Part shown: positions 20,082 through 61,684 of the stretch, in pieces | Position numbering within the stretch: the first letter of the stretch is position 1 | Layout of the letters: every line of letters starts with the position of its first letter | IMG/VR virus record: IMGVR_UViG_3300044796_000658 | Coordinates: 110,701-174,700 of that record | From: a virus | Reading direction: 5' to 3' (one strand) | Length of the DNA: 64,000 nucleotides | The notes under the pieces: model-generated | What the model saw: the letters and a program-made list of their open reading frames with translations, nothing else | Databases searched by the model: none | What the model was told of the DNA's origin: nothing | Position numbers and translations under genes: made by a program

Positions 20082-21584
20082 TTAAATCTCCGACGGCGCA
20101 TCCATCACGGAAGTTTTACCGCTGCCCGTCATCGGGAACGGAATGACTTCTTTCATAGAAGTTTCGCCGCATACCAACATCGCCAACCTGTCTATTCCCA
20201 AAGCGATACCACCGTGCGGAGGCGTTCCCAAATCGAACGCTTCCAACATATGCCCAACACTCGCATTGATTTGAGCGTCGGAATATCCCATCACACGATA
20301 AGTAGCAGTTAACAATTCCCTACTGTGAGAACGAATGCTACCGCTACCGATTTCCATACCGTTACAAACCAAGTCGTACTGGTATGCTTGGATTTCGGCA
20401 ATGTTTTCGCCTTTTTTGTGCCATTCGACATGTTCATCGATTGGCCGACTGAACGGGTTGTGCATGAACGTCCAGCCAGACTTACTATCTAGCTTGTCAA
20501 TTTCTTCTTTGGCTTGCTTGAACATCGGGAAGTTAACAATCCAACAGAAAGCCAAATCCCCGTTCGCCTTTTCCTTCTCGGTACGAATATCGGGTTTATC
20601 CGTGCCGTACTTGTCCATCGCCTCTTTATAGGTGATGATGGGGAAAAGTTGCGATTTGAAATTGGCCTGTTCCCGTGGCTTGCCGAACCTTTCGCCGAAG
20701 TCCCTTTCCATACTCATCGTGTACGGCCATTTTCGTCCACCCAAGGCTTCACGGGGCAACAAACACCGTTCTTCACGACACCCTGCCATACTGTTGAACA
20801 AAGCACCTTCAACGACATCAAAAATCTCTTCCTGTTTAACGAAAGACATTTCCAAGTCTAATTGAGTGAACTCAAACCCACGGTCAGCACGTAACGCCTC
20901 ATCACGGAAACATCGGGCAATTTGGTAATAGCCCTTGAACCCCGCTGTCATCAACAATTGTTTGTACTGTTGTGGACTTTGCGGCAGAGCGTAAAACTTG
21001 CCCGGTTGTAGGCGTGAAGGTACAACAAAGTCACGAGCGCCTTCTTTGGTGGACTGCGTGAGGATTGGAGTCTCAATTTCCGTTAAGTCGCAAGACTCCA
21101 ACGAAGCCCGCAAATCACGAATGATCTTGGCACGTGTTTTAATGTTGGCTTGCATCCGTGGGCGGCGCAAGTCCAAGTACCTATAACGCAAACGAACATC
21201 TTCCGCAATGTCACGACCATCGCCATCAATAGGCAACGGCAAATCCTTACACTTGTTAAGAATTGTCAATTTCTCAACGAACAACTCAACGGTACCAGTG
21301 GGAAGATTGGGGTTAACCATCTTCTCTGGACGTTTGACGACCTTGCCGACAAGCGATACAACGTCTTCACGGTTCAATTCCTCAAAGCCTTTACCGAGAA
21401 AGGCTTGAAGAATGTTTCCTTCATTGTCACGAATGTCAATGAAAGTAAACTTGCCGTGACTACGTTTGGCATTTACCCACCCCTTAACTTCCCATAAGTT
21501 CCCACATTCCCACAAAGCGGGATAGGGGTTCGTGAGTTTAGAGATGGCTAGTGGAAGTATCATATTAATCTGCGTTGAGGGCAT
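20082..21584 (-). CDS. aspS: Aspartyl-tRNA synthetase, bacterial type without the GAD insertion domain
   Basis: 500 residues. An N-terminal OB anticodon-binding domain (VKGWVNAKRSHGKFTFIDIR) precedes a class II catalytic core. It has RYLDLRRP (136-142), motif 2 CFRDEALRADRGFEFTQLD (225-243), GMEIGSGSIRSH and motif 3 GIALGIDRLAML (459-470). Bacterial enzymes are usually near 590 residues and carry a GAD domain between KPDLR and the WVVDFP-like strand. Here DKPDIR (329-334) leads almost directly to FCWIVNFPMF (346-355), so that domain is missing. It charges tRNA-Asp in the cytoplasm. An internal ATG at 21563, 2 bases after the upstream stop, is an alternative start. Confidence 0.93.
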   Translation of the reverse strand: MPSTQINMILPLAISKLTNPYPALWECGNLWEVKGWVNAKRSHGKFTFIDIRDNEGNILQAFLGKGFEELNREDVVSLVGKVVKRPEKMVNPNLPTGTVELFVEKLTILNKCKDLPLPIDGDGRDIAEDVRLRYRYLDLRRPRMQANIKTRAKIIRDLRASLESCDLTEIETPILTQSTKEGARDFVVPSRLQPGKFYALPQSPQQYKQLLMTAGFKGYYQIARCFRDEALRADRGFEFTQLDLEMSFVKQEEIFDVVEGALFNSMAGCREERCLLPREALGGRKWPYTMSMERDFGERFGKPREQANFKSQLFPIITYKEAMDKYGTDKPDIRTEKEKANGDLAFCWIVNFPMFKQAKEEIDKLDSKSGWTFMHNPFSRPIDEHVEWHKKGENIAEIQAYQYDLVCNGMEIGSGSIRSHSRELLTATYRVMGYSDAQINASVGHMLEAFDLGTPPHGGIALGIDRLAMLVCGETSMKEVIPFPMTGSGKTSVMDAPSEI

Positions 21585-23124: not shown

Positions 23125-24402
23125 TTATGTCAACTTGAATCCAGGCGCAAAGCATCGCAAAATTTGAATAATTGAATCGGCAGATGCAGTGTCCAAAGTA
23201 ACACCTTTATTCTTGTTGTAGAATTCCATTAATCCACTCACAACCTTGTTCAACTTGAAGTTCGTTACGTTATGATCGATCTCTTTTTCCAGTTCTGGGA
23301 TATTAACAGGCGGCGGTAATTTCAAATCACTTTCCGCTTTACCCAACCAAACTTTCATGCGATTCAAAAATCGTTTCAATCCAACGATCTTGTCATCAGA
23401 CCAATCCCCGCCATCAAAATAGTGTCCCAAAAACATTAAGTACATCCGGAGTTCATCCGAGTCGTAATTTTCAGGATTGACGGCATTACCTTTGGACTTG
23501 CCCATCTTGGCACCGTTACAAGTAATCATCCCCTGATGGATTACCTTGCGGAACGGTTCCTCTTCCGGTACAATGCCCAAATCGTATAAAAACATATGAA
23601 TGAAGCGAGCATAGATCAAATGCATACAAGCATGTTCAGCCCCGCCAACATACAAATCCACTGGACGATACGAACCCTTCGGCAAGAATTCATCCTTGCT
23701 ATCAGTCAAGTACCGCAAGAAGTAAAAAGAACTATCAACGAAAGTATCTAACGTATCAGTTTCACCCTCTATCGGAATAGGACAACCCCACTTCCTTTGG
23801 CGAGATACGCACCAATCCCTCAAATTAGCTAACCAAGCACGCTGCTGCTTAATAGTACCCTCTGGATAATCAATCTTATCCAAATTGGCAATCAAACGAT
23901 CCTTATAATCAGTAATCTTGAAGTACCATTGGTTCATGGTATTTTCAGAAACCTTGCTATCACAGCGGTCGCACTTTTCATCCTTAACTTGTTCGTTGGC
24001 CAATACGGTTTCACAAGAGGGGCACCAATTGACAACACCGTTAGCCTTATATGCCAAACCCTTCTCGTACAACTTCATGAACAGCCACTTAGTCCACTTC
24101 TCATAATTTGCGTTACAAGTGATGAACTTTTCTTCGTACTGAGTATTCATTCGCTCCATCTGATGACGGAAGCGTTCAATATTCAAGAAAGTTACGTCGG
24201 CAGGATCACCGCCGATTTGCCGTGCGTAGTTTTCAGCAGGCAAACCGTAGGCGTCATAACCGAAAGGTTGGTTAACTTCAATACCTTTGTACCTTAACCA
24301 ACGACAATAACTATCTACGAGAGCGTAGTTGTAGTAATGCCCTAAGTGCAAACCGGCACCACTAGGATAGGGGAACATAACAACAACATTTTGATTATTC
24401 AT
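23125..24402 (-). CDS. leuS: Reduced leucyl-tRNA synthetase lacking the CP1 editing domain
   Basis: 425 residues against about 860 in ordinary bacteria. The class I core is intact: HLGH (19-22), NQPFGYDAYGLPAEN, a zinc knuckle C127/C130/C144/C147, DTFVDSSFYFLRYL, PVDLYVGGAEHACMHLIYAR, and KMGKS (299-303) for KMSKS. After KITDYKDRLIANLDKID the normal enzyme has a roughly 200-residue editing domain; here IKQQRAWLANL (184-194) runs straight into RDWCVSRQRKWGCPIP. The C-terminal tRNA-elbow domain is missing too, since the protein ends at ILRCFAPGFKLT. It should activate leucine but not proofread. A tRNA-Leu is encoded at 46897. Confidence 0.93.
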   Translation of the reverse strand: MNNQNVVVMFPYPSGAGLHLGHYYNYALVDSYCRWLRYKGIEVNQPFGYDAYGLPAENYARQIGGDPADVTFLNIERFRHQMERMNTQYEEKFITCNANYEKWTKWLFMKLYEKGLAYKANGVVNWCPSCETVLANEQVKDEKCDRCDSKVSENTMNQWYFKITDYKDRLIANLDKIDYPEGTIKQQRAWLANLRDWCVSRQRKWGCPIPIEGETDTLDTFVDSSFYFLRYLTDSKDEFLPKGSYRPVDLYVGGAEHACMHLIYARFIHMFLYDLGIVPEEEPFRKVIHQGMITCNGAKMGKSKGNAVNPENYDSDELRMYLMFLGHYFDGGDWSDDKIVGLKRFLNRMKVWLGKAESDLKLPPPVNIPELEKEIDHNVTNFKLNKVVSGLMEFYNKNKGVTLDTASADSIIQILRCFAPGFKLT

Positions 24403-29098: not shown

Positions 29099-30061
29099 TC
29101 ACATATATTCAAGATTCGTATATGAAACCTTATCACAGAGAATTGAATAAATCAACGCCTTTCTGACAGTCACACCATTCTTTGGTTGTTCTTTCAAATA
29201 TCTAACACGTTTATCACCGTCCAACGATGTAGGAATTTCTTCATTTCTCGGCATTGGATGCATGATCAAAGATTTCTCTGGCAAAATCTTCAAATCACTT
29301 TCTGTCAAACAAAAATCCTTCCACCGATCAGCGTGAATGGAATAATCCACCATCCGCTCTTTCTGCAACCGAGTCATGTAAACCACATCCGGTGAAGATT
29401 GAAAGGAATCCTTGATAGACTCGTATTTGTTAACTTGAACCCTTCTACTCACCAACCAATCTGCCAATTCATCAGGTAAAGACAAACGGTTCGGACTGGT
29501 AAGCGATAAAGTTAACTTCGGATAGTTTGACAGCAAGCGTACGAGGCTGTGTACGGTTCTTCCGTGAAGAAGGTCGCCACATATCATTACGTTGAGATGA
29601 TCCAATTTGCGGTGCTTTTTGATCGTGTACAGGTCAAGCAAAGCCTGTGTGGGATGCTCGCCCGTACCATCCCCCGCATTGATTACAGGAACCTTTGCAA
29701 CCTTGGCTGCACGTTCTACGGCATTTAACACCGGAGTTCGTAAAACGATAATATCGGCATAGTTGGAAACGGTAGCAACCATATCTTCTATGGATTCACC
29801 TTTGGCAGCAGATGAGGTTCCGGAATCGGATACGGTAATGACATTGCCACCCATACAGTACATGGCAGCTTCAAATGAAAGTCGTGTTCTAGTAGAAGGT
29901 TCCAAAAAAAGTGTAGCAAGGGTTTTTCCCTTAGCTAACGAATTAGTGTAAAATAATTTGTCATCTTTAACAACGGCGGCATCAGAAACGGCATTGGCAA
30001 CGTGAAATAACTCATCCAAACTCTCACGAGTTTCAAATTGTTTGGCAGAAATGAGGTGCAT
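29099..30061 (-). CDS. pyrB: Aspartate carbamoyltransferase catalytic subunit
   Basis: 320 residues, the usual catalytic-chain length. FLEPSTRTRLSFEAAM (52-67) binds carbamoyl phosphate, KGES (88-91) is the mobile 80s loop, GEHPTQALLDLYTI (135-147) and CGDLLHGRTVHSLVRLL (161-177) are the family signatures, and MHPMPRNEEI holds the aspartate loop. It makes carbamoyl aspartate from carbamoyl phosphate and aspartate, the committed step of pyrimidine synthesis. No regulatory subunit gene (pyrI) is adjacent. It has its own sigma70-like promoter. All active-site motifs are intact, so I expect activity. Confidence 0.95.
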   Translation of the reverse strand: MHLISAKQFETRESLDELFHVANAVSDAAVVKDDKLFYTNSLAKGKTLATLFLEPSTRTRLSFEAAMYCMGGNVITVSDSGTSSAAKGESIEDMVATVSNYADIIVLRTPVLNAVERAAKVAKVPVINAGDGTGEHPTQALLDLYTIKKHRKLDHLNVMICGDLLHGRTVHSLVRLLSNYPKLTLSLTSPNRLSLPDELADWLVSRRVQVNKYESIKDSFQSSPDVVYMTRLQKERMVDYSIHADRWKDFCLTESDLKILPEKSLIMHPMPRNEEIPTSLDGDKRVRYLKEQPKNGVTVRKALIYSILCDKVSYTNLEYM

Positions 30062-39998: not shown

Positions 39999-40394
39999 AT
40001 GAAATATCCCCACGCCCCATATAGACCAGTACCACCCGTAAAGACGAAAACAGTTAATCACGGCTCTGAAGTGATTTATACTGGCGATCTTTTTGCTCTT
40101 GATCAAATACCAAGCAGTGCTACCCATATGAAATTTGACAGGGGCGATGACAGTTACGATGGTTGTCAAGAAGTTCGTTTTATTGAACAAGTTAATTTGA
40201 GCGAAGAAGAGATAGCCAAAGATACCGCTGCTTACGAAAAGAAATTAAAGAAGTACGAAAAAGATTTAGCTAAATTCAATTCGGATTTGAAATCTTATAA
40301 CGAAAACGCCAAAAACAGAAAACTGGAACAACAAAGAAAACAATATCTCAGACTCAAGAAGAAGTTTGAGAATATTGACGAAATAAAAAGTTAG
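39999..40394 (+). CDS. Unknown protein with C-terminal coiled coil (131 aa)
   Basis: 131 residues. Residues 1-60 are Pro-rich then beta-like (IPSSATHMKFDRGDDSYDG). Residues 70-131 form a long charged helix (KKLKKYEKDLAKFNSDLKSY). It converges on the M4 peptidase gene, overlapping its stop by 4 bases. Confidence 0.62.
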   Translation: MKYPHAPYRPVPPVKTKTVNHGSEVIYTGDLFALDQIPSSATHMKFDRGDDSYDGCQEVRFIEQVNLSEEEIAKDTAAYEKKLKKYEKDLAKFNSDLKSYNENAKNRKLEQQRKQYLRLKKKFENIDEIKS

Positions 40395-41407
40395 ATAACG
40401 CCGACTTTTTTCCAAGCCTTGTTGAATGCATTGGTTTCCGGACCGGGGCCGAACAATTTGCGACTGACCTTTAACGTCAGATCGGCAAAATCTTGGAAAG
40501 TTGTATTAGGATCTGAAAGCCTGCGAGTTAAGGTGTTATACCAGACTCTACCCGCTTTCTCCCAAGCATTGCCCCCAATATCCACGGCAGCAAGATAAAA
40601 TGCGTGCGAAGGAATACCACAATTCATGTGAATTCCACCGTTATCATCAGTTGTATTGACGTAGTCCTTCATATCAGCAACACACGGATCTTTGCCCAAT
40701 ACTTTATCATCGTAAGCTGTACCGGGTGCTTTGAGACTTCGGATACCAACACCATTGACTTTTTTAGTGAATAAGCCTGCTCCAATAATCCATTCGGCTT
40801 GATCTGCTGTTTGTTTGTGCTTATACTGTAATGACAAGCTTCCGAATACGTCAGAAATGGCTTCATTCATAGCGCCGGGTTGATCGTGGTAACCTAACTG
40901 AAGAATCGAACCAGTAACGCCGTGAGTCATTTCATGGCCGATAACTTCAAGACACTTGGTAAATCTTAAAAAGATTTTTCCATCACCGTCACCAAAAACC
41001 ATGCGTTCGCCATTCCAGAAAGCATTGTTAAAGTTTTTGCCGAAGTGAACGGTGCTAAATAACTTCATCCCGTTTCCATCGAGTGAATTGCGGTTGTAAG
41101 CACCAAGATAAAAGTCGTAAACGTCGCCTGTGTGTTCGTATGCTTCATCTACTGATTTGTCGCCATCTGGTGCTTGGCCTTCTTTGCGACTAACTTGACC
41201 AATGAGGTTTTGTGTGTGATCAGCACTTTGAATAACTCGGAATTTGCCACTGTCTCTTTTACCGAGATTGTAACGACCGAGAATTTCCCGGTGTCCACGA
41301 ATTCTTTCACTGGAAGTCAAAGTGGCTAATGCCCAATGTTTTTGATCGTTTTCACCGTGGTTAACGATGTGTTTCAAGATATGAGGCGGCAAGATATAAT
41401 TAAGCAT
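40391..41407 (-). CDS. Thermolysin-like (M4 family) metallopeptidase
   Basis: 338 residues. HEMTH at 158-162 gives two zinc ligands and the catalytic Glu; AMNEAISDVFGSL supplies the third ligand Glu182; GGIHMNCGIPSHAFYLA carries the catalytic-site His of the family. The N-terminus (YILPPHILKHIVNHG) matches the short pro-region of the protealysin-like branch, and there is no signal peptide. Such enzymes act in the cytoplasm or leave by lysis. It is an isolated minus-strand gene with plus-strand neighbours, so probably a transferred unit. Confidence 0.9.
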   Translation of the reverse strand: MLNYILPPHILKHIVNHGENDQKHWALATLTSSERIRGHREILGRYNLGKRDSGKFRVIQSADHTQNLIGQVSRKEGQAPDGDKSVDEAYEHTGDVYDFYLGAYNRNSLDGNGMKLFSTVHFGKNFNNAFWNGERMVFGDGDGKIFLRFTKCLEVIGHEMTHGVTGSILQLGYHDQPGAMNEAISDVFGSLSLQYKHKQTADQAEWIIGAGLFTKKVNGVGIRSLKAPGTAYDDKVLGKDPCVADMKDYVNTTDDNGGIHMNCGIPSHAFYLAAVDIGGNAWEKAGRVWYNTLTRRLSDPNTTFQDFADLTLKVSRKLFGPGPETNAFNKAWKKVGVI

Positions 41408-43306: not shown

Positions 43307-43528
43307 ATGTCTCTCGTTTTTATTACACCGAAAACCGGACATACAATGCAAAAGGTGTTTAATTACCTACTTTCCAAAGATATTGACATCACTACGGTGA
43401 ATGTCATCACAATGAAGGCCAAAGTACCCAAAAAGTACTTTGAACAGTTAGAGAAAATGGCTACGGTTATCACACAGGAACATTATGAACAAACTCTACC
43501 CAACGCTCAGCAAGTACATTCTGGCTGA
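43307..43528 (+). CDS. Unknown protein, tandem paralogue B (73 aa)
   Basis: 73 residues: MSLVFITPKTGHTMQKVFNY, later MKAKVPKKYFEQLEKMATVI. Same plan as the preceding gene. Its last 44 bases overlap the start of the aminotransferase gene in another frame. Confidence 0.6.
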   Translation: MSLVFITPKTGHTMQKVFNYLLSKDIDITTVNVITMKAKVPKKYFEQLEKMATVITQEHYEQTLPNAQQVHSG

Positions 43529-44702
43529 CAAAAATGCCATCACCGTAGACCTTGACAGAAGTCATGGATCATGGTTAGTGGATGATGAGGGACGAGAACG
43601 GCTCGATCTCTTCTCTCAATATGCAAGTCAACCCTTGGGTTGGAACGATCCAGATGTACTGGCTCAAAAAGACCGGCTCATCCGTATCGTTCAACACAAC
43701 GTTGCTAACCCTGATTTTTACACTCCTGAATATGCTCAATTCGTAGAGACATTCGCATCATTCGGCAGTGATTTCAAACACTTCTTCTTCATTGCCGGTG
43801 GTACATTGGGTGTAGAGAATGCCTTGAAAGCAGCATTTGATTACAAGGCAAAAAAGAATGGTTGGTCGGGTGAAAAAGTTAACAGTTTGGATGTAATTCA
43901 TTTCCGCAATGCATTCCACGGACGAAGCGGTTATACATTATCACTAACCAATACCACTCCGGACAAGACCGACAATTTCCCCAAGTTCGATTGGACTCGG
44001 ATGGATATTCCGAATGATGAAATTGGAGAAGAAAGCGTACTGGACGAGATTTGTGGCAGACTTAACCACAACAAGGAAGTGGCAGCAATTCTGATTGAAC
44101 CTATTCAGGGTGAAGGTGGTGATAATCACTTTACGCCGTCGTTTATGTTTGAATTGAAGAAATTGGCAGACGAATATGATGTCATGTTGATTTTGGATGA
44201 AGTTCAGACGGGAATGGGATTAACTGGTAAGACTTGGGCGTACGAGCATTATGGCATCGTACCTGACTTGATTTCCTTTGGCAAAAAGGTTCAAGTGTGT
44301 GGTTGTGCGTCCACTGGCAAGATTGATGCTGTACCAGACAACGTATTCAAGGTCAAGTCCCGCATTAACAGTACGTGGGGCGGGAATTTGGTGGATATGG
44401 TACGATCAACGATTAGCATGGAAGTGATTCGTGAAAGAAAGTTGATAGAAAATGCAGCCAAGGTAGGCAAATACTTCCAAATCAAACTTGCAAAGTTGGG
44501 ATTGGAAAACCTACGTGGTAAAGGGTTGATGATTGCTTTTGATCTTCCCAACAGCGATAGCAGGAACAAATTCCTAGATCGTTTGCATGAAAAAGCGATT
44601 GCGATCAAATGTGGCAAAAAGAGTGTCAGATTACGACCGCACTTAACTTTTGGAACAGAGGAGGCCGATTTGGCCGTCGATATGATCCGTGAATCTTTAT
44701 AA
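43485..44702 (+). CDS. lat: L-lysine 6-aminotransferase-like class III PLP enzyme
   Basis: 405 residues. It follows the lysine epsilon-aminotransferase family closely: VDLDRSHGSWLVDDEGRERL, FIAGGTLGVENALKAAFDYK, FHGRSGYTLSLTNTTPDKTD, EPIQGEGGDNHFTPSF, LILDEVQTGMGLTGKTW (Asp238 binds the PLP ring N) and LISFGKKVQVCG with the Schiff-base Lys (267 or 268). The family converts L-lysine to the 6-semialdehyde, which cyclises to piperideine-6-carboxylate. AGGA precedes the ATG, which lies 44 bases inside the upstream gene. No partner dehydrogenase is seen. Confidence 0.85.
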   Translation: MNKLYPTLSKYILADKNAITVDLDRSHGSWLVDDEGRERLDLFSQYASQPLGWNDPDVLAQKDRLIRIVQHNVANPDFYTPEYAQFVETFASFGSDFKHFFFIAGGTLGVENALKAAFDYKAKKNGWSGEKVNSLDVIHFRNAFHGRSGYTLSLTNTTPDKTDNFPKFDWTRMDIPNDEIGEESVLDEICGRLNHNKEVAAILIEPIQGEGGDNHFTPSFMFELKKLADEYDVMLILDEVQTGMGLTGKTWAYEHYGIVPDLISFGKKVQVCGCASTGKIDAVPDNVFKVKSRINSTWGGNLVDMVRSTISMEVIRERKLIENAAKVGKYFQIKLAKLGLENLRGKGLMIAFDLPNSDSRNKFLDRLHEKAIAIKCGKKSVRLRPHLTFGTEEADLAVDMIRESL

Positions 44703-46896: not shown

Positions 46897-46970
46897 GGCC
46901 AAGTGGTGGAACGGTTATACACGTTAGTTTTAGGAACTAATTTTTGAGGGTTCGAATCCCTCCTTGGTCA
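46897..46970 (+). tRNA. tRNA-Leu (anticodon UAG) with short variable loop
   Basis: A complete 74-base cloverleaf. Acceptor GGCCAAG/CTTGGTC (7 pairs, one G-T) with discriminator A; D arm GTG/CAC; anticodon stem TTAGT/ACTAA with loop TTTAGGA, so anticodon TAG, reading CUA (Leu); variable loop TTTTT (5 bases); T arm GAGGG/CCCTC with TTCGAAT. Bacterial tRNA-Leu normally has a long, paired variable arm; this one does not. CCA is not encoded (CTA follows), so it must be added by an enzyme. It lies 6 bases after one gene and 17 before the next, inside the operon. Confidence 0.88.
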
Positions 46971-46987
46971 CTAAACAGGAGAATTTC

Positions 46988-51465: not shown

Positions 51466-52995
51466 TTACTTCTTTCTTGGGAACAATGGTTCCAACTTTT
51501 CGCTAGTGACCTCAATCTTTCCTTCGGTATCGTATTCACGGTGAATGATTTTGTACATCTGATCCCACGTTAACTTTTCCCATTCGTCTTTCCAATTGAA
51601 AGCCTTGTATACTTTTTCAGCAGTATCCGGCAAGTAGGGTTTGAGATAAATGGAAACGATTCGCAAGCTCATGCAACACCAACGTAGGAACGATGGTGTT
51701 GACTCAATGGTTTTGTCCCACGGTTTGTTTTCTTCGATTTGAGTATTGATGTACGTCAAAAGATTCCAAACCAATTGAAGGGCATCACGGTAGTGGTAAA
51801 AACACGTTTTTTCAATCCATGTAGAATTTCTTGGCAGCGGCGGTGCCCATTTTTCGTTATGTGAATTTTCCGCTGTTCCAAACTTGCGAACCAGAGTGTG
51901 AACCCGGCTAAGCAGATTTCCAAGATTGTTAGCAAGATCGGAGTTGTAAACTTCCTTAAAGTGCTGAGGATCATAATCGCCATCTGAGCCGAATGAGCAT
52001 TTCGCCAAAAAGTAGTAGCGGTAAGCATCACGACCGTATTCGCTAACGATTTCTGTTGGATCGATAAACGTACCACTCTTGGAAATCTTCTCACCCTTCG
52101 TTTGGATGAATCCATGTCCAAACACCTTGGAAGGCAGAGCGATATGTGGTTGCGCAATTGGCTGTTCGGCACCAATGTTGTACGCTGCAATCATAGCTGG
52201 CCAAAAGATACAGTGGAAGCGAGTGATGTCTTTCCCGATGATGTGAGCGTCCGCAGGCCACCATTTGAGGAACATCTCTTCATTGTTCCCAAACCCTGCC
52301 CCGGTCAAATAATTAATGAGGGCGTCAAACCAAACATAAATTACTTGGCTTTCATCCCACGGAATCGGAATGCCCCATCCTTGATTGCGACGACTAATCG
52401 AGATGTCTTCAATCTCTTCCAAAAAGGCTTCCACTTCATTTGCTCTCACTTGCGGTCGAACATTAACCAAAAAGTTTTTGGCGACTTCTTTGAACCTCGG
52501 ATCGGACAACCGGAAGAAGTAGTTTTCCTCTTCAACCTGAACTATGTCGAGGGTTTGGTGATTCGGACACTTGCCATCAACGAGGCTTTTACCTGTCTTG
52601 AATTCTTCACAACCGGCACAGTAAGGAGCTTTATACTGTTTTTTGTAAATGGCTCCCGATCTTTCGGCTATGGTAATGAATTTGGTTACTGCTGCCTTGT
52701 GTTCGGGGGAGGTGGTCTGGATGAAGGCATCGTAGGAAATGCCGAGCAAGTCCCAGACCTTGCGAAATTCGATTGCCATTTCATCGCAATACGCTTGTGG
52801 ATCTTTGTTGAGTTTCTTGGCACGTTCGGCAACTTTCAGGGTATTCTCGTCGTTACCCATTAAGAATCGTACTTCGTTGCCAGTCATCCGTTGGAACCGG
52901 GCTTGGGCATCAGCACCCAATTTCTCGAATGCCGTTCCAATGTGAGGAAGACTGTTTGGGTAATCAATTGCGGTCGTGATGAAGAACTTAGACAT
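51466..52995 (-). CDS. metG: Methionyl-tRNA synthetase
   Basis: 509 residues. ITTAIDYPNSLPHIGTAFEK has the HIG(H) motif; a single zinc knuckle C126/C129/C143/H146 (CAGCEEF...CPNH); ISISRRNQGWGIPIPWD; YVWFDALINYLTG; and KGEKISKSGTFIDP (KMSKS variant KISKS, 303-307). The anticodon-binding helical domain is present; the C-terminal EMAP-like dimerisation domain of many bacteria is absent, as in the short form. It charges tRNA-Met in the cytoplasm. A sigma70-like promoter lies upstream. Confidence 0.95.
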   Translation of the reverse strand: MSKFFITTAIDYPNSLPHIGTAFEKLGADAQARFQRMTGNEVRFLMGNDENTLKVAERAKKLNKDPQAYCDEMAIEFRKVWDLLGISYDAFIQTTSPEHKAAVTKFITIAERSGAIYKKQYKAPYCAGCEEFKTGKSLVDGKCPNHQTLDIVQVEEENYFFRLSDPRFKEVAKNFLVNVRPQVRANEVEAFLEEIEDISISRRNQGWGIPIPWDESQVIYVWFDALINYLTGAGFGNNEEMFLKWWPADAHIIGKDITRFHCIFWPAMIAAYNIGAEQPIAQPHIALPSKVFGHGFIQTKGEKISKSGTFIDPTEIVSEYGRDAYRYYFLAKCSFGSDGDYDPQHFKEVYNSDLANNLGNLLSRVHTLVRKFGTAENSHNEKWAPPLPRNSTWIEKTCFYHYRDALQLVWNLLTYINTQIEENKPWDKTIESTPSFLRWCCMSLRIVSIYLKPYLPDTAEKVYKAFNWKDEWEKLTWDQMYKIIHREYDTEGKIEVTSEKLEPLFPRKK

Positions 52996-55109: not shown

Positions 55110-55514
55110 ATGCGTCAAGAAAAGACCCTTACATCGTTTCTCGGCAAACCAGAGGAACCTAAGCCTCGCAAGGGTATGTCGCCAGAGCAAAAGCAACGCA
55201 TCGGCGGCTACATGGATGATTTCAAGGCAACCAATGGTGGATGCCTCTTGTGTAAAGACAAAACGCTCATCGCCGAAACGAACGCCTTCCCCGATATTTC
55301 CGCAACCCACGCCGGATTGTTCCTTTATGGGTTGTGCAAGCAGCACGCCAACGAAGTCGATTCCGATAAGCAATCAGAACTGGCCATGATGCAGATATGG
55401 CGTACAAGATCCGAAATTCCCAAAGAAGAGCGACAAACCCAATCTCTGCCTGCGGATTGCAAAATCGTGATGATCGACCTTAACCAAGATCCCGAAGTGA
55501 GAATTTATCTGTGA
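55110..55514 (+). CDS. Unknown protein with Cys pair (134 aa)
   Basis: 134 residues from the ATG at 55110 with AAGGA upstream. MSPEQKQRIGGYMDDFKATN then GGCLLCKDKTLIAETNAFPD and LFLYGLCKQHANEV. The CLLC...C..H set could bind zinc. The stop overlaps the PurC start (GTGA). Family unknown. Confidence 0.58.
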   Translation: MRQEKTLTSFLGKPEEPKPRKGMSPEQKQRIGGYMDDFKATNGGCLLCKDKTLIAETNAFPDISATHAGLFLYGLCKQHANEVDSDKQSELAMMQIWRTRSEIPKEERQTQSLPADCKIVMIDLNQDPEVRIYL

Positions 55515-56371
55515 TTCGATCTGAAATTGACGCCTACCCCGTTATGCGGGGTAAGGTACGTGATACCTACGATGTTGGTAATAACACTCTGGTGGTTGTA
55601 ACAACCGACCGCCTGAGTGCCTTTGATTATGTACTTCCAAGTATCATTCCCAATCGTGGGAAAGTGTTAACTCAACTCACAAACTTTTGGTTTCCAAGAC
55701 TACTAACAACAACTCATGTTCTTTCTACTGACTTGAAAGATATGCCGAAAGAATTTCATAAAAAGGAATTCGAAGATAGAACGATGTTGGTTACTAAGTG
55801 CCAAATGTTTCCCTACGAATGTGTTGTTAGAGGATTTCTATCCGGCTCGGCATGGGATGAATACACCAAAAAAGGCACCATAGGTTTTCAAGATGCTCCT
55901 AAAGGCTTGACTGAATCTATGCCTCTATATCCGCCAGTCTTTACTCCGGCCACAAAAGAAGCTAATGGACACGACATTAATATCTCATTGGATGAAATGA
56001 GAGAGGGTTGTGTGTGGGCTGATTTTCTCTCGCTTCATTCAACTGATATTTTCATAGAAGCACAAGAAATCGCATTTTCCAAAGGATTGCTTTTGGCGGA
56101 TACGAAGTTTGAATTTGGAGCCAACCATAATAAAGAAGTCATATTGTGCGATGAATTCTTGACTCCTGATAGCAGCCGTTATTGGCCAGTCGATACATAT
56201 CGTACGGGATCGAATGTACCAAGTCTTGACAAACAGGTTGTTAGACAATGGCTTTTGGAATCTGGTTGGGATCGCAAGAGCGAACCGCCTGAACTTCCGC
56301 AAGCTGTAATAGAAAAAGTCAGTAAGAATTACGAACGTGTTTACTTCATGTTAACTGGAAAAACATTGTAA
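55511..56371 (+). CDS. purC: Phosphoribosylaminoimidazole-succinocarboxamide (SAICAR) synthetase
   Basis: 286 residues from a GTG at 55511. RGKVRDTYDVG (ATP loop), TTDRLSAFDYVLPSIIPNRG, CVVRGFLSGSAWDEYTKKGT, LLLADTKFEFG and LTPDSSRYWPVDTYRTG are the family motifs. It joins CAIR and aspartate to SAICAR with ATP in purine synthesis. All key motifs look intact; length fits the longer PurC form. It is in a plus-strand operon with no other pur gene in the window. Confidence 0.94.
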   Translation: MIRSEIDAYPVMRGKVRDTYDVGNNTLVVVTTDRLSAFDYVLPSIIPNRGKVLTQLTNFWFPRLLTTTHVLSTDLKDMPKEFHKKEFEDRTMLVTKCQMFPYECVVRGFLSGSAWDEYTKKGTIGFQDAPKGLTESMPLYPPVFTPATKEANGHDINISLDEMREGCVWADFLSLHSTDIFIEAQEIAFSKGLLLADTKFEFGANHNKEVILCDEFLTPDSSRYWPVDTYRTGSNVPSLDKQVVRQWLLESGWDRKSEPPELPQAVIEKVSKNYERVYFMLTGKTL

Positions 56372-57204: not shown

Positions 57205-57834
57205 ATGACATGCATCATAGGTTTCGCTGATAAAGACAAAGTTTATATCGGCGGCGACTCGGCAGGCGTTTCCGGATATAGCATTCATATCCGTGCCGAT
57301 GAAAAGGTGTTTCGCAATGGCCCATTCATTATGGGCTTTACATCAAGCTTCCGAATGGGACAACTTCTCCGGTACGTTTTTCAACCGCCCGAACAACCCG
57401 CCGATATGGATGATCGCAAATTCATGGTTGCGGTATTCATTCCCGCAGTTAAGAAATGTTTCAAAAGCGGTGGTTTTCAAAGAAGTAAAGACGGGGGAGA
57501 CAGAGGCGGCGCATTCCTAGTAGGATACAAAGGCAGACTGTACGAAATTGACGAAGACTACCAAGTTGGCTTATTGGCTGACAACGTGGCCTCGGTTGGA
57601 TGTGGTGAGAGTGTGGCATTGGGTGCTATGTACGGTTTAGCTCATACCAAACTTGATCCCATCGCAAAAATTCTTAAGGCTTTGGAAATTACATCCTACT
57701 TGAATGCTGGTGTTAGACCACCATTCATTGTTGAGACTCTTTCAATTCACGATACACCACCACTCACGACATTGCCTTTACCATCTTTAACACCACCACC
57801 TGTTGAAGCTGTAACAGAGCCAGAGAAGAGTTAA
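57205..57834 (+). CDS. Ntn-hydrolase resembling proteasome beta / HslV
   Basis: 209 residues. MTCIIGFADKDKVYIGGDSA begins like HslV and proteasome beta subunits. If Met1 is removed, Thr is residue 1, the Asp of GGDSA is residue 17 and the Lys of ADEKVF is residue 33, the exact proteasome T1-D17-K33 triad; GCGESVALGAMYG fits the GSG/Ser129 region. Pro-rich C-terminal 35 residues are extra. Such proteins form rings that cleave peptides with Thr1; whether this assembles and what feeds it is unknown. It closes the plus operon before a strong terminator. Confidence 0.75.
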   Translation: MTCIIGFADKDKVYIGGDSAGVSGYSIHIRADEKVFRNGPFIMGFTSSFRMGQLLRYVFQPPEQPADMDDRKFMVAVFIPAVKKCFKSGGFQRSKDGGDRGGAFLVGYKGRLYEIDEDYQVGLLADNVASVGCGESVALGAMYGLAHTKLDPIAKILKALEITSYLNAGVRPPFIVETLSIHDTPPLTTLPLPSLTPPPVEAVTEPEKS

Positions 57835-57904: not shown

Positions 57905-58834
57905 CTATGAGGCACTCATTATAATCCCATTTGAGATGCTGAAATAGGTGTAATTGCCACTACCATTAAACCCGCCTAATGAACTACTGGTTAGATAACC
58001 CGCATCGTTGGTAAATGTGCTTACATTACTTGGAATACTAGAACTTGTAATATAATTAGCATCATTTGAAAAATAACTTACATTGCTAGGAATACTTGAA
58101 CTTGTAATATAGTTAGCATCATTTGAAAAAGAACTTACGTTGCTAGGATAACCAGTAATGTAGCCAACATCATTTGAAAAATAACCTACATTGGTAGGCA
58201 GACCACTCAAATCACTATAGTTATTAGAAGTAGCTACCATTGCCAAACCGCTAGATGTTATAAATCCCGTATCATTATTTAAGTGTGATGTAGCCAAAGC
58301 AGCACCACTAACTTTGTAAGAACTCATATCACAGGTTAATCCGGTGAGAGTACTAAAAGCCTGAGTTCCACTGAATGTATTGTCAACGTTAGTATAAGCC
58401 AAATGGTTTGACACTAGGTAGTTTGGAATATCGCCAGTAGAACCGGCAAGATGAGAAGCAGCTAAATTCGTAATACCCGATCCATTTCCAGTCAAAGAAG
58501 TAGCGGCAAGTGTGCCAGTTACAGTTTGTCCAACTGAAAAGTTATTGTTGGTATTCTTCAAAGCAACATTACTAGAAAGACGAGCATCAGCAACAGTGCC
58601 AGAAGAAATGTTTGAACCCGAAAGAGCCGTAATACCACTACCAGCACCAGTTAACGTGGTAGCAGCAAGCGTACCAGTTACGGTAAGTGGGCCACTCATT
58701 GTTTGTAATGCTGTTTCTGCGACATTAACGCAAGAAACCAAAAAATCTCTAATGTCTTGAGGTGTGATTTCCCCATTTGTATTATCTACTAGAATTGCCT
58801 TCAATGCAGCAATATTGCGTACTGTATCTGTCAT
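57905..58834 (-). CDS. Tail-fibre-like repeat protein (309 aa)
   Basis: 309 residues. A short N-terminal helical domain (residues 1-45) is followed by Thr/Ser/Asn/Gly-rich beta repeats (VTGTLAATTLTGAGSGITAL, twice) and then three to four SNDANYITSSSIPSNVSYF units near the C-terminus. Shaft repeats of this type are typical of phage tail or head fibres that trimerise. It has a TATAAATA element 35 bases upstream. Receptor specificity cannot be judged. Confidence 0.75.
   Translation of the reverse strand: MTDTVRNIAALKAILVDNTNGEITPQDIRDFLVSCVNVAETALQTMSGPLTVTGTLAATTLTGAGSGITALSGSNISSGTVADARLSSNVALKNTNNNFSVGQTVTGTLAATSLTGNGSGITNLAASHLAGSTGDIPNYLVSNHLAYTNVDNTFSGTQAFSTLTGLTCDMSSYKVSGAALATSHLNNDTGFITSSGLAMVATSNNYSDLSGLPTNVGYFSNDVGYITGYPSNVSSFSNDANYITSSSIPSNVSYFSNDANYITSSSIPSNVSTFTNDAGYLTSSSLGGFNGSGNYTYFSISNGIIMSAS
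58019..58132. repeat. 57-bp in-frame tandem repeat (two best copies)
   Basis: Two near-identical 57-base units (about 58019-58075 and 58076-58132), plus weaker flanking copies, encode 19-residue shaft units. They allow fibre length change by recombination. Confidence 0.75.
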
Positions 58835-58880: not shown

Positions 58881-59381
58881 ATGGTGGACACCAATAAGAA
58901 TATTAATGATAATGCAGGCAACAAACAATCGGAAAATCCGATGTTGTTGAAACGATTTGCAAAAAAAGTCAAGAATGACAATACGTTTCCGGGCTTTATT
59001 AATCCAAATCATATTCCTGATCCACATTTGAGTAGCTCGTCAAGCGATGCTTTGAGTAACAATATTGGCTTTATCAAGAATATTGTTCGGCATTTCAATC
59101 CAGACAGAGCAGTGTTGGTTGTTCGTCATAACAAACAAGATTTGAATATTGTTGCCGATTTCAAAACAGAGATTTTGGTAGGTAAGCAAAAGGGTGATTT
59201 TGACGACTTAACAATTAACCAAACCATTGATTTTCAAATTGATAGCCATAATACAGCTTTTTTAATCCAAATCAATGCCGGTGTTTTTGAAGGCAAGGTT
59301 CAAAAGATCATTAAGGATGGCGGCGATACCGTTATTCTCGTAGAAGACGATTCTAAAAAAAAAACTCTAAGCATTTCATAA
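58881..59381 (+). CDS. N-terminal part of a putative frameshift fusion; unknown virion-like protein (166 aa)
   Basis: 166 residues in its own frame: polar N-terminus, then VRHFNPDRAVLVVRHNKQDL and FQIDSHNTAFLIQINAGVFE. The end has the codons AAA-AAA-AAA inside an A10 run (59355-59364) before a stop at 59381. A -1 shift there continues into the open frame that leads to the Met/Lys-rich protein, whose first convincing coding bases (59381-59503) have no start codon. I infer that the two are one protein of about 934 residues made by slippage, or that one A is missing from the assembly. Confidence 0.6.
   Translation: MVDTNKNINDNAGNKQSENPMLLKRFAKKVKNDNTFPGFINPNHIPDPHLSSSSSDALSNNIGFIKNIVRHFNPDRAVLVVRHNKQDLNIVADFKTEILVGKQKGDFDDLTINQTIDFQIDSHNTAFLIQINAGVFEGKVQKIIKDGGDTVILVEDDSKKKTLSIS
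59355..59364 (+). other. A10 slippery run, probable frameshift or transcript slippage site
   Basis: Ten consecutive A follow CTTCT... (TCT AAA AAA AAA ACT in the first frame). One extra A or a -1 slip gives TCT AAA AAA AAA AAC and joins two coding frames. Long A runs are known sites of polymerase slippage and of -1 frameshifting. Confidence 0.65.
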
Positions 59382-59503
59382 TAACGGCTGAAACCTTACG
59401 TCGTAAATTCGTTAAAGACGGAATTGTATTCTCACGCCGTCGCCTTCATGTAGGCATTGACGTAACAGTTTATTATACAGTTAACGACCATCATAGAGCG
59501 AGA

Positions 59504-61684
59504 ATGGTCGTCATTGCTCCGAAGTTAGGCCAAAACTCATCTTCTCTTTCACTTTCATCAACCACTAAAATGATGAAAAAGAAGAAGAATTCGAAGATGA
59601 TGAAGACCCGCCCTAATCACATGATGATGAAGGCGAAAATGATGATGATGATGGGTCACAAGATGACCATGAAGAAAATGATGTCTGGCATGAAGCCAAA
59701 GATGATGTCTATGATGTCTATGATGTCTAAGATGATGATGAAGAAAAAAATGAAAATGAAGAAAAAGGGGATGATGACCCCCATGATGATGATGAAGATG
59801 ATGAAAAATAAAATGACCGGTATGAGTGTTAAGATGATGAAAGGAAAAATGACGGGCACTATGACCGGTATGGGTGGAATGAATGGTGAGCCGGGGGGGC
59901 CGGGAACTATGAATGGCGGGCCGGGTATGATGATGGGTATGAAGCCTAAAATGTCAATGATGATGAAGATGAAGAACAAGATGAAAATGATGATGATGAA
60001 GATGAAGATGAAAATGAAAATGATGAAAATGATGAAATCCGGAATGATGATGTTTGCGTCTTCATTCGTTCCTTTTTCCTCTTCATTGTCAAGTTTCGCT
60101 AGTTCTGTGCGATCAAGTTTCGTCAGTAACTCGGCACAGTCGTCTTACGTACCTTTCTCATCATCGTTTGGAAGTCCTACGTCATTTTCATTTTCGCAGA
60201 ATTCCCAATCGTTTAGCCCGTTCAGTTTTTCGCTTGGTAGTAATAGCTTTAATCCGTCCACTTTGCCTTCACCATCACCACCTGCGAGCCTACGACATCC
60301 TTCGATATCATTGGAACCTAGTAGTATACCAGAACCATCCTTTACAGGGCCACAGCCGACGCCATATCCGTCGCCAAGTAGTCAACCACACCCTTCACCA
60401 AGTAGCTCGAAGCCAGCAAGCAAGAGTCATGAATACTCTTCGTACTTTTCTTCACACTCTTCATCATCACCACAACCGTGCTGTGAATGCCATTACGAAG
60501 TACAGAATTTAGGACTATGTGGTATGGGTATTTTCGGCTTCCAATTTTGCCCTGAAGAAAATCACCCAGAACTAGGATGTGCAGGCGGATTTGGTACTCG
60601 TTTACTCCAAAAGGGTTTCGGCGCTACAGTATGTGGCGGGCCATTCATTGTATGTTGGTTCGGAACAGCACGATTGGAAGTATGTGAGCCGTGTCCAGAA
60701 CCTTCGGGAGGTGGACCGGGACCGGGTGGTCCAGGACCGGGTCCAGGGCCGGGACCGGGTGGACCAGGGCCGGGACCACAACCGGGACCGGGTGGAATGG
60801 GTGGTGGCATGATGGGCATGGGGCCAGCAGTAGCAACTCGTCTAGTTGTCACAACCGACAAAGATAGCTATAAGGCGGGCGAAACCATTTATGTTAACGT
60901 CAAAACATATCGTGGCAAGAAGTTTTTCAATAGATATAATGGTGTTCTTGCCATTCACGCTAATGATGATACTGGTGTTTATCCATTAACTGTTATGATA
61001 ACTAATGGTATTGGAAACTTTACCGCCACATTCTGCAAGCCGGGACTGAGTCATAGAATCAAGGTTGGCGACGGCGTACTCATTGGTAAAACTGACAAAT
61101 TTAGAATCATACCGGGTGATGTTGTTGGATTTGATGTACAATACTTACGTCCACCAGATGAACCGGCTACTATTGAAGCCTGTAAAATATTAACTATTAC
61201 GGTATGTGCCAAAGATGGATGTGGTAATATTGTAAAGAATTTTGTTGGATTAGTTAATTTTTCTTCTACGGATTTGAATGCTACTTTACCTATTCCTATT
61301 AATTTCAAGAAGGGATTCCAAGGTTGCAGCCAAAGAACTATGACATTTACAACGGTAGGCAGTCAAATATTAACTGCTACATCTGCTGATAATCCAACAC
61401 TCACCGGAACAATGCCAATGTTGGTTGTACATAATGTAATTAGAAAATTCATTGTGAAACGAGTTGGTGGTCAAGTTTGCATTTCAGCATCAGATAGATG
61501 TGGCAATACAATTACCGAATATGTCGGCACCGCTGTTATTACAACAACGGTATCAGGCATTCCTTCAAGTTACACGTTTATGGTAAGTGATTTTGGTACA
61601 AAGTGTTTTACTACACCAAGTAATGGTAATGTTCTAGCGATTGATAATATTAATTGTGAAATTAGGGGAAGTGGTATCGTATAA
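59504..61684 (+). CDS. Giant low-complexity surface protein: Met/Lys-rich, Ser-rich, Cys-rich, PG repeat, Ig-like domains
   Basis: 726 residues from the first ATG; the open frame without a start extends back to 59357. Domains: a Met/Lys stretch of about 160 residues (about 69 Met and 39 Lys by my count), Ser/Phe/Pro-rich region (residues 185-315), a Cys-rich module (CCECHYEV...CEPCPEP, about 12 Cys), Pro-Gly repeats (GPGPGGPGPGPGPGPGGPG), then at least two beta domains of the bacterial Ig-like type (ITVCAKDGCGNIVKNFVGLV; later VGSQILTATSADNPTLTGTM). I infer a surface or appendage protein. The frame is real because the other frames have stops through the region. A strong terminator follows. 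Confidence 0.7.
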   Translation: MVVIAPKLGQNSSSLSLSSTTKMMKKKKNSKMMKTRPNHMMMKAKMMMMMGHKMTMKKMMSGMKPKMMSMMSMMSKMMMKKKMKMKKKGMMTPMMMMKMMKNKMTGMSVKMMKGKMTGTMTGMGGMNGEPGGPGTMNGGPGMMMGMKPKMSMMMKMKNKMKMMMMKMKMKMKMMKMMKSGMMMFASSFVPFSSSLSSFASSVRSSFVSNSAQSSYVPFSSSFGSPTSFSFSQNSQSFSPFSFSLGSNSFNPSTLPSPSPPASLRHPSISLEPSSIPEPSFTGPQPTPYPSPSSQPHPSPSSSKPASKSHEYSSYFSSHSSSSPQPCCECHYEVQNLGLCGMGIFGFQFCPEENHPELGCAGGFGTRLLQKGFGATVCGGPFIVCWFGTARLEVCEPCPEPSGGGPGPGGPGPGPGPGPGGPGPGPQPGPGGMGGGMMGMGPAVATRLVVTTDKDSYKAGETIYVNVKTYRGKKFFNRYNGVLAIHANDDTGVYPLTVMITNGIGNFTATFCKPGLSHRIKVGDGVLIGKTDKFRIIPGDVVGFDVQYLRPPDEPATIEACKILTITVCAKDGCGNIVKNFVGLVNFSSTDLNATLPIPINFKKGFQGCSQRTMTFTTVGSQILTATSADNPTLTGTMPMLVVHNVIRKFIVKRVGGQVCISASDRCGNTITEYVGTAVITTTVSGIPSSYTFMVSDFGTKCFTTPSNGNVLAIDNINCEIRGSGIV

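Follow-up and report, generated by a model that had tools for sequence, protein, structure and literature searches.

A tract of 163 amino acids (aa) dominated by methionine and lysine is encoded at 59567-60055 (+) of the window, a 64,000-nucleotide stretch of viral DNA that corresponds to positions 110701-174700 of the 174.7-kb IMG/VR virus record IMGVR_UViG_3300044796_000658. The Met/Lys tract is no stand-alone gene; it forms the N-terminal portion of a 726-aa open reading frame (ORF) at 59504-61684 (+), the frame of which is open from 59357. The 726-aa phage protein belongs to no known family and is modular; the tract, real and unusual, serves in it as a low-complexity linker. The product is tentatively interpreted as a fibre-type or surface protein in which the tract would act as a flexible, sticky, cationic, and thioether-rich tether.

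Composition and Organization of the 726-aa Protein

The translation of the tract contains 69 Met, 40 Lys, 18 Gly, 8 Ser, 8 Thr, 7 Pro, 2 His, and 1 Glu, with no Asp and no Cys, and the net charge is +40. The first-pass annotation had described approximately 162 residues with approximately 69 Met, 39 Lys, and hardly any acidic residues, in good agreement with these values. Met accounts for 42% of the residues. With the confident genes of the window as the background (3.1% Met), the probability of at least 69 Met among 163 residues is ~1e-58, and the tract has the composition of a Met-rich low-complexity domain, with Met dominant and far above chance. Neither alpha- nor beta-type periodicity of Met versus Lys is detected, and amphipathic periodicity is absent. 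The tract also carries tandem repeats, imperfect but in frame, with units of 6, 9, 18, 24, 27, 30, and 33 bases.

Gly is the most common partner of Met in Met-rich low-complexity domains, some of which have been linked to redox sensing in yeast (PMC11132505). The same survey finds low-complexity domains of every class to be scarce in viruses and counts the Met-rich domains among the rare classes (PMC11132505). Met is likewise the dominant residue of the phage tract, whereas its partner there is Lys, at a net charge of +40. Among the papers found, none reports a Met/Lys tract from a phage.

The modules of the 726-aa ORF, with the evidence for each, are as follows:

59504..61684 (+): 726-aa ORF that holds the Met/Lys tract (ORF list, coding score)
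N-terminus of the ORF (+): 21-aa lead before the Met/Lys tract (composition)
59567..60055 (+): Met/Lys-rich tract, 163 aa, net +40 (translation, codon tests, stop test)
60056..60274 (+): Ser/Phe-rich tract (composition)
60275..60439 (+): Pro/Ser-rich tract, approximate boundary (composition)
60440..60706 (+): Cys-rich module, approximate boundary (coding score, composition; no Pfam match)
60707..60826 (+): Gly-Pro collagen-like linker that ends in MGGGMMGMGP (repeats, composition)
60827..61681 (+): C-terminal region, 285 aa, putative immunoglobulin (Ig)-like repeats (internal repeat, subthreshold MG2/Big_1 matches)

Parts 2 and 3 of the C-terminal region are related to each other (Z = 4.2, P = 0.002). 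The scores of this region are 13.4 bits (E = 0.11) for MG2 (PF01835) and 11.6 bits (E = 0.31) for Big_1 (PF02369), under the gathering cutoffs of 32.8 and 34.9 bits, respectively. The KD-x-x-GN-type and DK-x-x-Y-x-AGE-type motifs of Big_1/MG2 proteins are also found in the phage region, which, unlike those proteins, scores under the Pfam cutoffs. AlphaFold2 was used without an alignment and gave predicted local distance difference test (pLDDT) values of 36 and 37, the latter for the single-sequence model of the C-terminal region. Sequence searches of Pfam, PHROGs, and PDB gave no match above threshold, and every match in Rfam was far under the gathering score.

Reading Frame of the Tract

The Met/Lys frame is favoured as genuine coding over the acidic (Asp/Glu) frame by four lines of test. 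The Lys codons of the tract vary synonymously (18 AAA and 22 AAG), whereas the equally easy transitions from Lys codons to Arg-type and Glu codons are found zero times and once, respectively. The 69 ATG codons are accompanied by no ATA or GTG. The AAA/AAG usage agrees with that of genes elsewhere in the window (P = 0.51), from which the GAT/GAC (P = 0.008) and GAA/GAG (P = 0.018) usage of the acidic frame deviates; these P values are approximate because the codons of a low-complexity tract are not independent. The first-pass annotation had noted an alternative Asp/Glu-rich frame with several stops, and the third frame is indeed of this kind. Its six stops are spread across the tract, leave a longest open run of 37 codons, and compare with a mean of 6.75 after shuffling of the Met/Lys codons. 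The count is thus at the level expected without selection, and nothing therefore removes stops from the acidic frame. The Met/Lys frame runs unbroken into the downstream modules; there, it has a coding score over the Cys-rich and Ig-like modules, and the other forward frames contain stops.

The exact 27-base Met/Lys DNA motif matched 25 viral and 16 cellular stretches. With the open frame taken as the criterion, the probable gene is the acidic one in nearly all of them. Only two loci, both of Woesebacteria (L278 and L283), depart clearly from this pattern, the only cellular ones that are seemingly Met/Lys; each has a short MGMKMKMMKMM segment after a hydrophobic segment, in an open frame of 104-106 codons. 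The motif is therefore common as DNA and its Met/Lys reading is exceptional. Acidic repeat tracts of phage and cellular proteins have DNA repeats nearly identical to those of the Met/Lys tract. Unlike them, the repeats of this phage are read in the other frame, and the acidic frame is closed by its six stops. Because the motif encodes acidic repeats nearly everywhere, annotators could wrongly choose the acidic frame.

A genuine acidic frame that was shifted by an indel in the assembly or the genome, an outcome that the first-pass annotation had allowed for, is extremely unlikely: this account has in its favour the acidic frame that is open almost everywhere else the motif occurs, and it is disfavoured, on the indirect test of codon usage and stop count and by the continuity of the Met/Lys frame, in the window itself.

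A Met-Rich Analogue in the Nearest Relative

Relatives were reached through the protein encoded at 652-2739 of the window, with an identity of 59% to the records G017 and G018 and 41% to LR756511 (595 kb). The nearest relative found, G018 (IMGVR_UViG_3300046678_000278), encodes an unannotated 298-aa Met-rich protein at L150:3585-4481, and the other frames of this gene are broken by stops. The order of the protein is an N-terminal beta-type domain, a Met-rich tract, a PSPSP stalk, and a Cys-rich end. The beta-type domain holds the PKD-like stretch GSHTYHKTGKFILKVTVYN and has no Pfam match. The Met-rich tract of 93 aa contains 25 Met, 25 Gly, 19 Lys, 12 His, and 1 Glu.

In this protein as in the 726-aa ORF, a Met-rich cationic tract goes together with stalk, Cys, and putative beta-sandwich-type modules, and the module order is the same. 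They differ in that the G018 tract is of Met, Gly, Lys, and His and that of the window is of Met and Lys; in the Gly-Pro linker and C-terminal Ig-like region, which the G018 protein lacks; and in genomic place. The G018 gene is part of a PKD-domain gene cluster, in which its neighbours are a PKD-domain gene of 700 aa on one side and a gene of 594 aa on the other. The homologues of these two genes are adjacent, with no intervening gene, in the genome of the window and in LR756511, which means that the G018 lineage acquired the Met-rich gene or the other lineages lost it. Among the 54 viral loci of the 700-aa PKD-domain family, a Met-rich tract is present in the fetched flanks of G018 and its duplicate only. 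A Met-pattern search of 44 related records likewise gave G018 as the sole match outside acidic reading frames.

A similarity search with the Met/Lys tract itself misses even the G018 analogue, so that an empty result of such a search says little; scans by pattern and by composition took its place. No comparable tract was present among the listed matches of the GMKPKM pattern in viral loci. A match of the tract to the record G013 (24% identity) was dropped, as the matched region has no Met-rich stretch. The first-pass annotation knew of no phage protein like this one and proposed a search for Met-rich proteins in related phages. As to sequence, the former statement holds; in composition and architecture, the search yields an analogue in G018, which is not alignable. 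The two proteins are not seen to be orthologous, since neither the tract nor the C-terminal part of the 726-aa ORF has a match in G018.

Other Met-rich stretches are found in this phage group. A second Met-rich repeat protein of G018, 217 aa with tandem repeats of MSGDTPVWMPSDGMSGMNG, is encoded at L153:10955-11608. GGM/MGG-rich low-complexity stretches appear in the proteins at L188:3185-4231 (LR756511) and L146:2625-3020 (the genome of the window). In this group, Met/Gly linkers seem to be recurrent.

Proposed Tether and Alternative Explanations

On the favoured interpretation, the large, tailed, uncultured phage would encode in the 726-aa ORF a protein of fibre type or of the surface that is built from modules, the Met/Lys tract being a translated low-complexity one. 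The tract would form a long, flexible, and strongly cationic tether between the N-terminal part and the Ser/Pro stalks that lead to the Cys-rich module and the C-terminal Ig-like domains. On the virion surface, where the protein is presumably exposed, the tether could bind, via charge and thioether contacts, to something anionic, either polymers of the host envelope or the phage particle. The disordered, cationic polymer proposed in the first-pass annotation fits the net charge of +40, the missing Met/Lys periodicity, and the adjoining low-complexity modules; the disorder itself is a prediction from these properties. The synonymous Lys changes and the G018 analogue speak for selection as what maintains the odd composition, and they suggest that it is no accident.

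Several points weigh against this interpretation. The 726-aa gene adjoins metabolic and unknown genes and is outside the structural cluster. Homologues of the C-terminal part, the upstream ORF (described below), and the fused N-terminus were found in none of the phages, plasmids, viral contigs, and related records searched. The two Met-rich proteins do not align: they have composition and plan in common, from which a common function would have to be argued, and common ancestry is not demonstrable. The C-terminal region can be called Ig-like by inference only, with subthreshold assignments and a model pLDDT of 37.

The main rival of the tether is neutral repeat growth, a possible though doubtful account in which triplets of the ATG/AAG type were expanded by replication slippage in a tolerant linker and Met/Lys does no more than keep the frame open. 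The imperfect in-frame repeats of 6-33 bases, the lack of amphipathic periodicity, and the frequency of the same DNA repeats elsewhere in the acidic frame are all consistent with such growth. It is opposed by the pattern of Lys changes and the uniform ATG codons described above, and by G018, which reaches a Met-rich cationic tract by different codons and residues (His, Gly).

A segment for soft metals (copper or silver), a role that the first-pass annotation had raised and in which clustered Met thioethers, together with His in G018, would bind Cu(I), is improbable. The 69 Met in 163 aa, and the 25 Met plus 12 His in the 93 aa of G018, would suit this role, and the G018 tract would suit copper better than that of the window. 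The argument is one of composition only, however: the tract of the window has 2 His and no Cys, its charge of +40 would repel cations, and no metal-handling gene is seen next to the 726-aa ORF. A redox-responsive assembly, in which the Met-rich tract would self-associate and be switched by Met oxidation, is very improbable, since the high charge opposes self-association.

A tract of 163 residues that is 42% Met, carries a charge of +40, and has an analogue in the nearest relative provides a defined natural polymer for tests of adhesion, metal binding, and redox behaviour.

Upstream ORF and the A10 Run

The features upstream of the 726-aa ORF are as follows:

58881..59381 (+): upstream ORF of 166 aa that may supply the N-terminus of a fusion product (coding score 62; the other forward frames contain stops)
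59355..59364 (+): A10 run, suggestive as a site for a -1 slip that would fuse the upstream ORF with the Met/Lys frame
59357..59503 (+): stretch before ATG 59504 over which the Met/Lys frame stays open, with no ATG, GTG, or TTG (ORF frame)

The upstream ORF ends five codons past the A10 run, and a -1 change within the run leads directly into the Met/Lys frame, which is then open for 775 codons. The record has only one other 10-base homopolymer, which is located within an ORF that keeps its frame. As in dnaX-type -1 frameshifting, an A-rich slippery run is present in the right phase. Bacterial slippage has been documented at runs of nine A, and phage tail genes make use of -1 frameshifting (PMC5009743). 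The phage locus resembles such genes in its A10 run, its upstream stop five codons on, and its long open -1 frame. It differs from them in that no stimulatory hairpin was found downstream of the run (z-score -0.25) and the codon score right after the run is poor: approximately 27% of chance-open wrong frames score equally well between A10 and the ATG at 59504. No relative that conserves A10 and the frame change was found in the homologue searches with the upstream ORF and the fused N-terminus. A fusion by a -1 slip at A10 is suggestive only, and a separate gene that starts at ATG 59504 or an assembly indel is possible instead.

Two weak matches were set aside. The match of the upstream ORF to LR756511 (E ~0.01-0.03) lies in an unrelated-looking 277-aa ORF. 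A DUF1344 match after the A-run has no extension into the upstream ORF once fused and gives no support to the fusion.

A broader proposal is rather unlikely: under it, selection would have favoured cationic Met-rich tethers repeatedly in the exposed proteins of this large-phage clade, where they would have arisen independently in different genes, and slippage at A10 would turn a short N-terminal protein into the tract-bearing long form in a fraction of the molecules. If so, only that fraction would bear the sticky tract and the Ig-like end.

Other Genes of the Phage

The gene at 57905-58834 (-), which adjoins the upstream ORF on the opposite strand, carries 57-base tandem repeats (SNVSYFSNDANYITSSSIP) and encodes a fibre-like protein of 309 aa. 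An HslV-family peptidase (PHROG 1040) is encoded at 57205-57834 (+), and 16 viral contigs, the longest of 481 kb, hold relatives of 50-57% identity. Aspartate carbamoyltransferase (29099-30061 (-)) and PurC (SAICAR synthase; 55511-56371 (+)), both of nucleotide synthesis, score above the NCBIfam cutoffs. Methionyl-, leucyl- (short, 425 aa), and aspartyl-tRNA ligases are all encoded on the (-) strand, with listed loci at 51466-52995, 23125-24402, and 20082-21584, and a tRNA-Leu is present at 46897-46971 (+). The Met-tRNA ligase of the phage is a curious neighbour of a Met-rich protein, with no link shown between the two. Unusual phage cargo is found in an aminotransferase nearest to L-lysine 6-transaminase (43485-44702 (+); below cutoff) and an M4-type metalloprotease-like protein (40391-41407 (-)).
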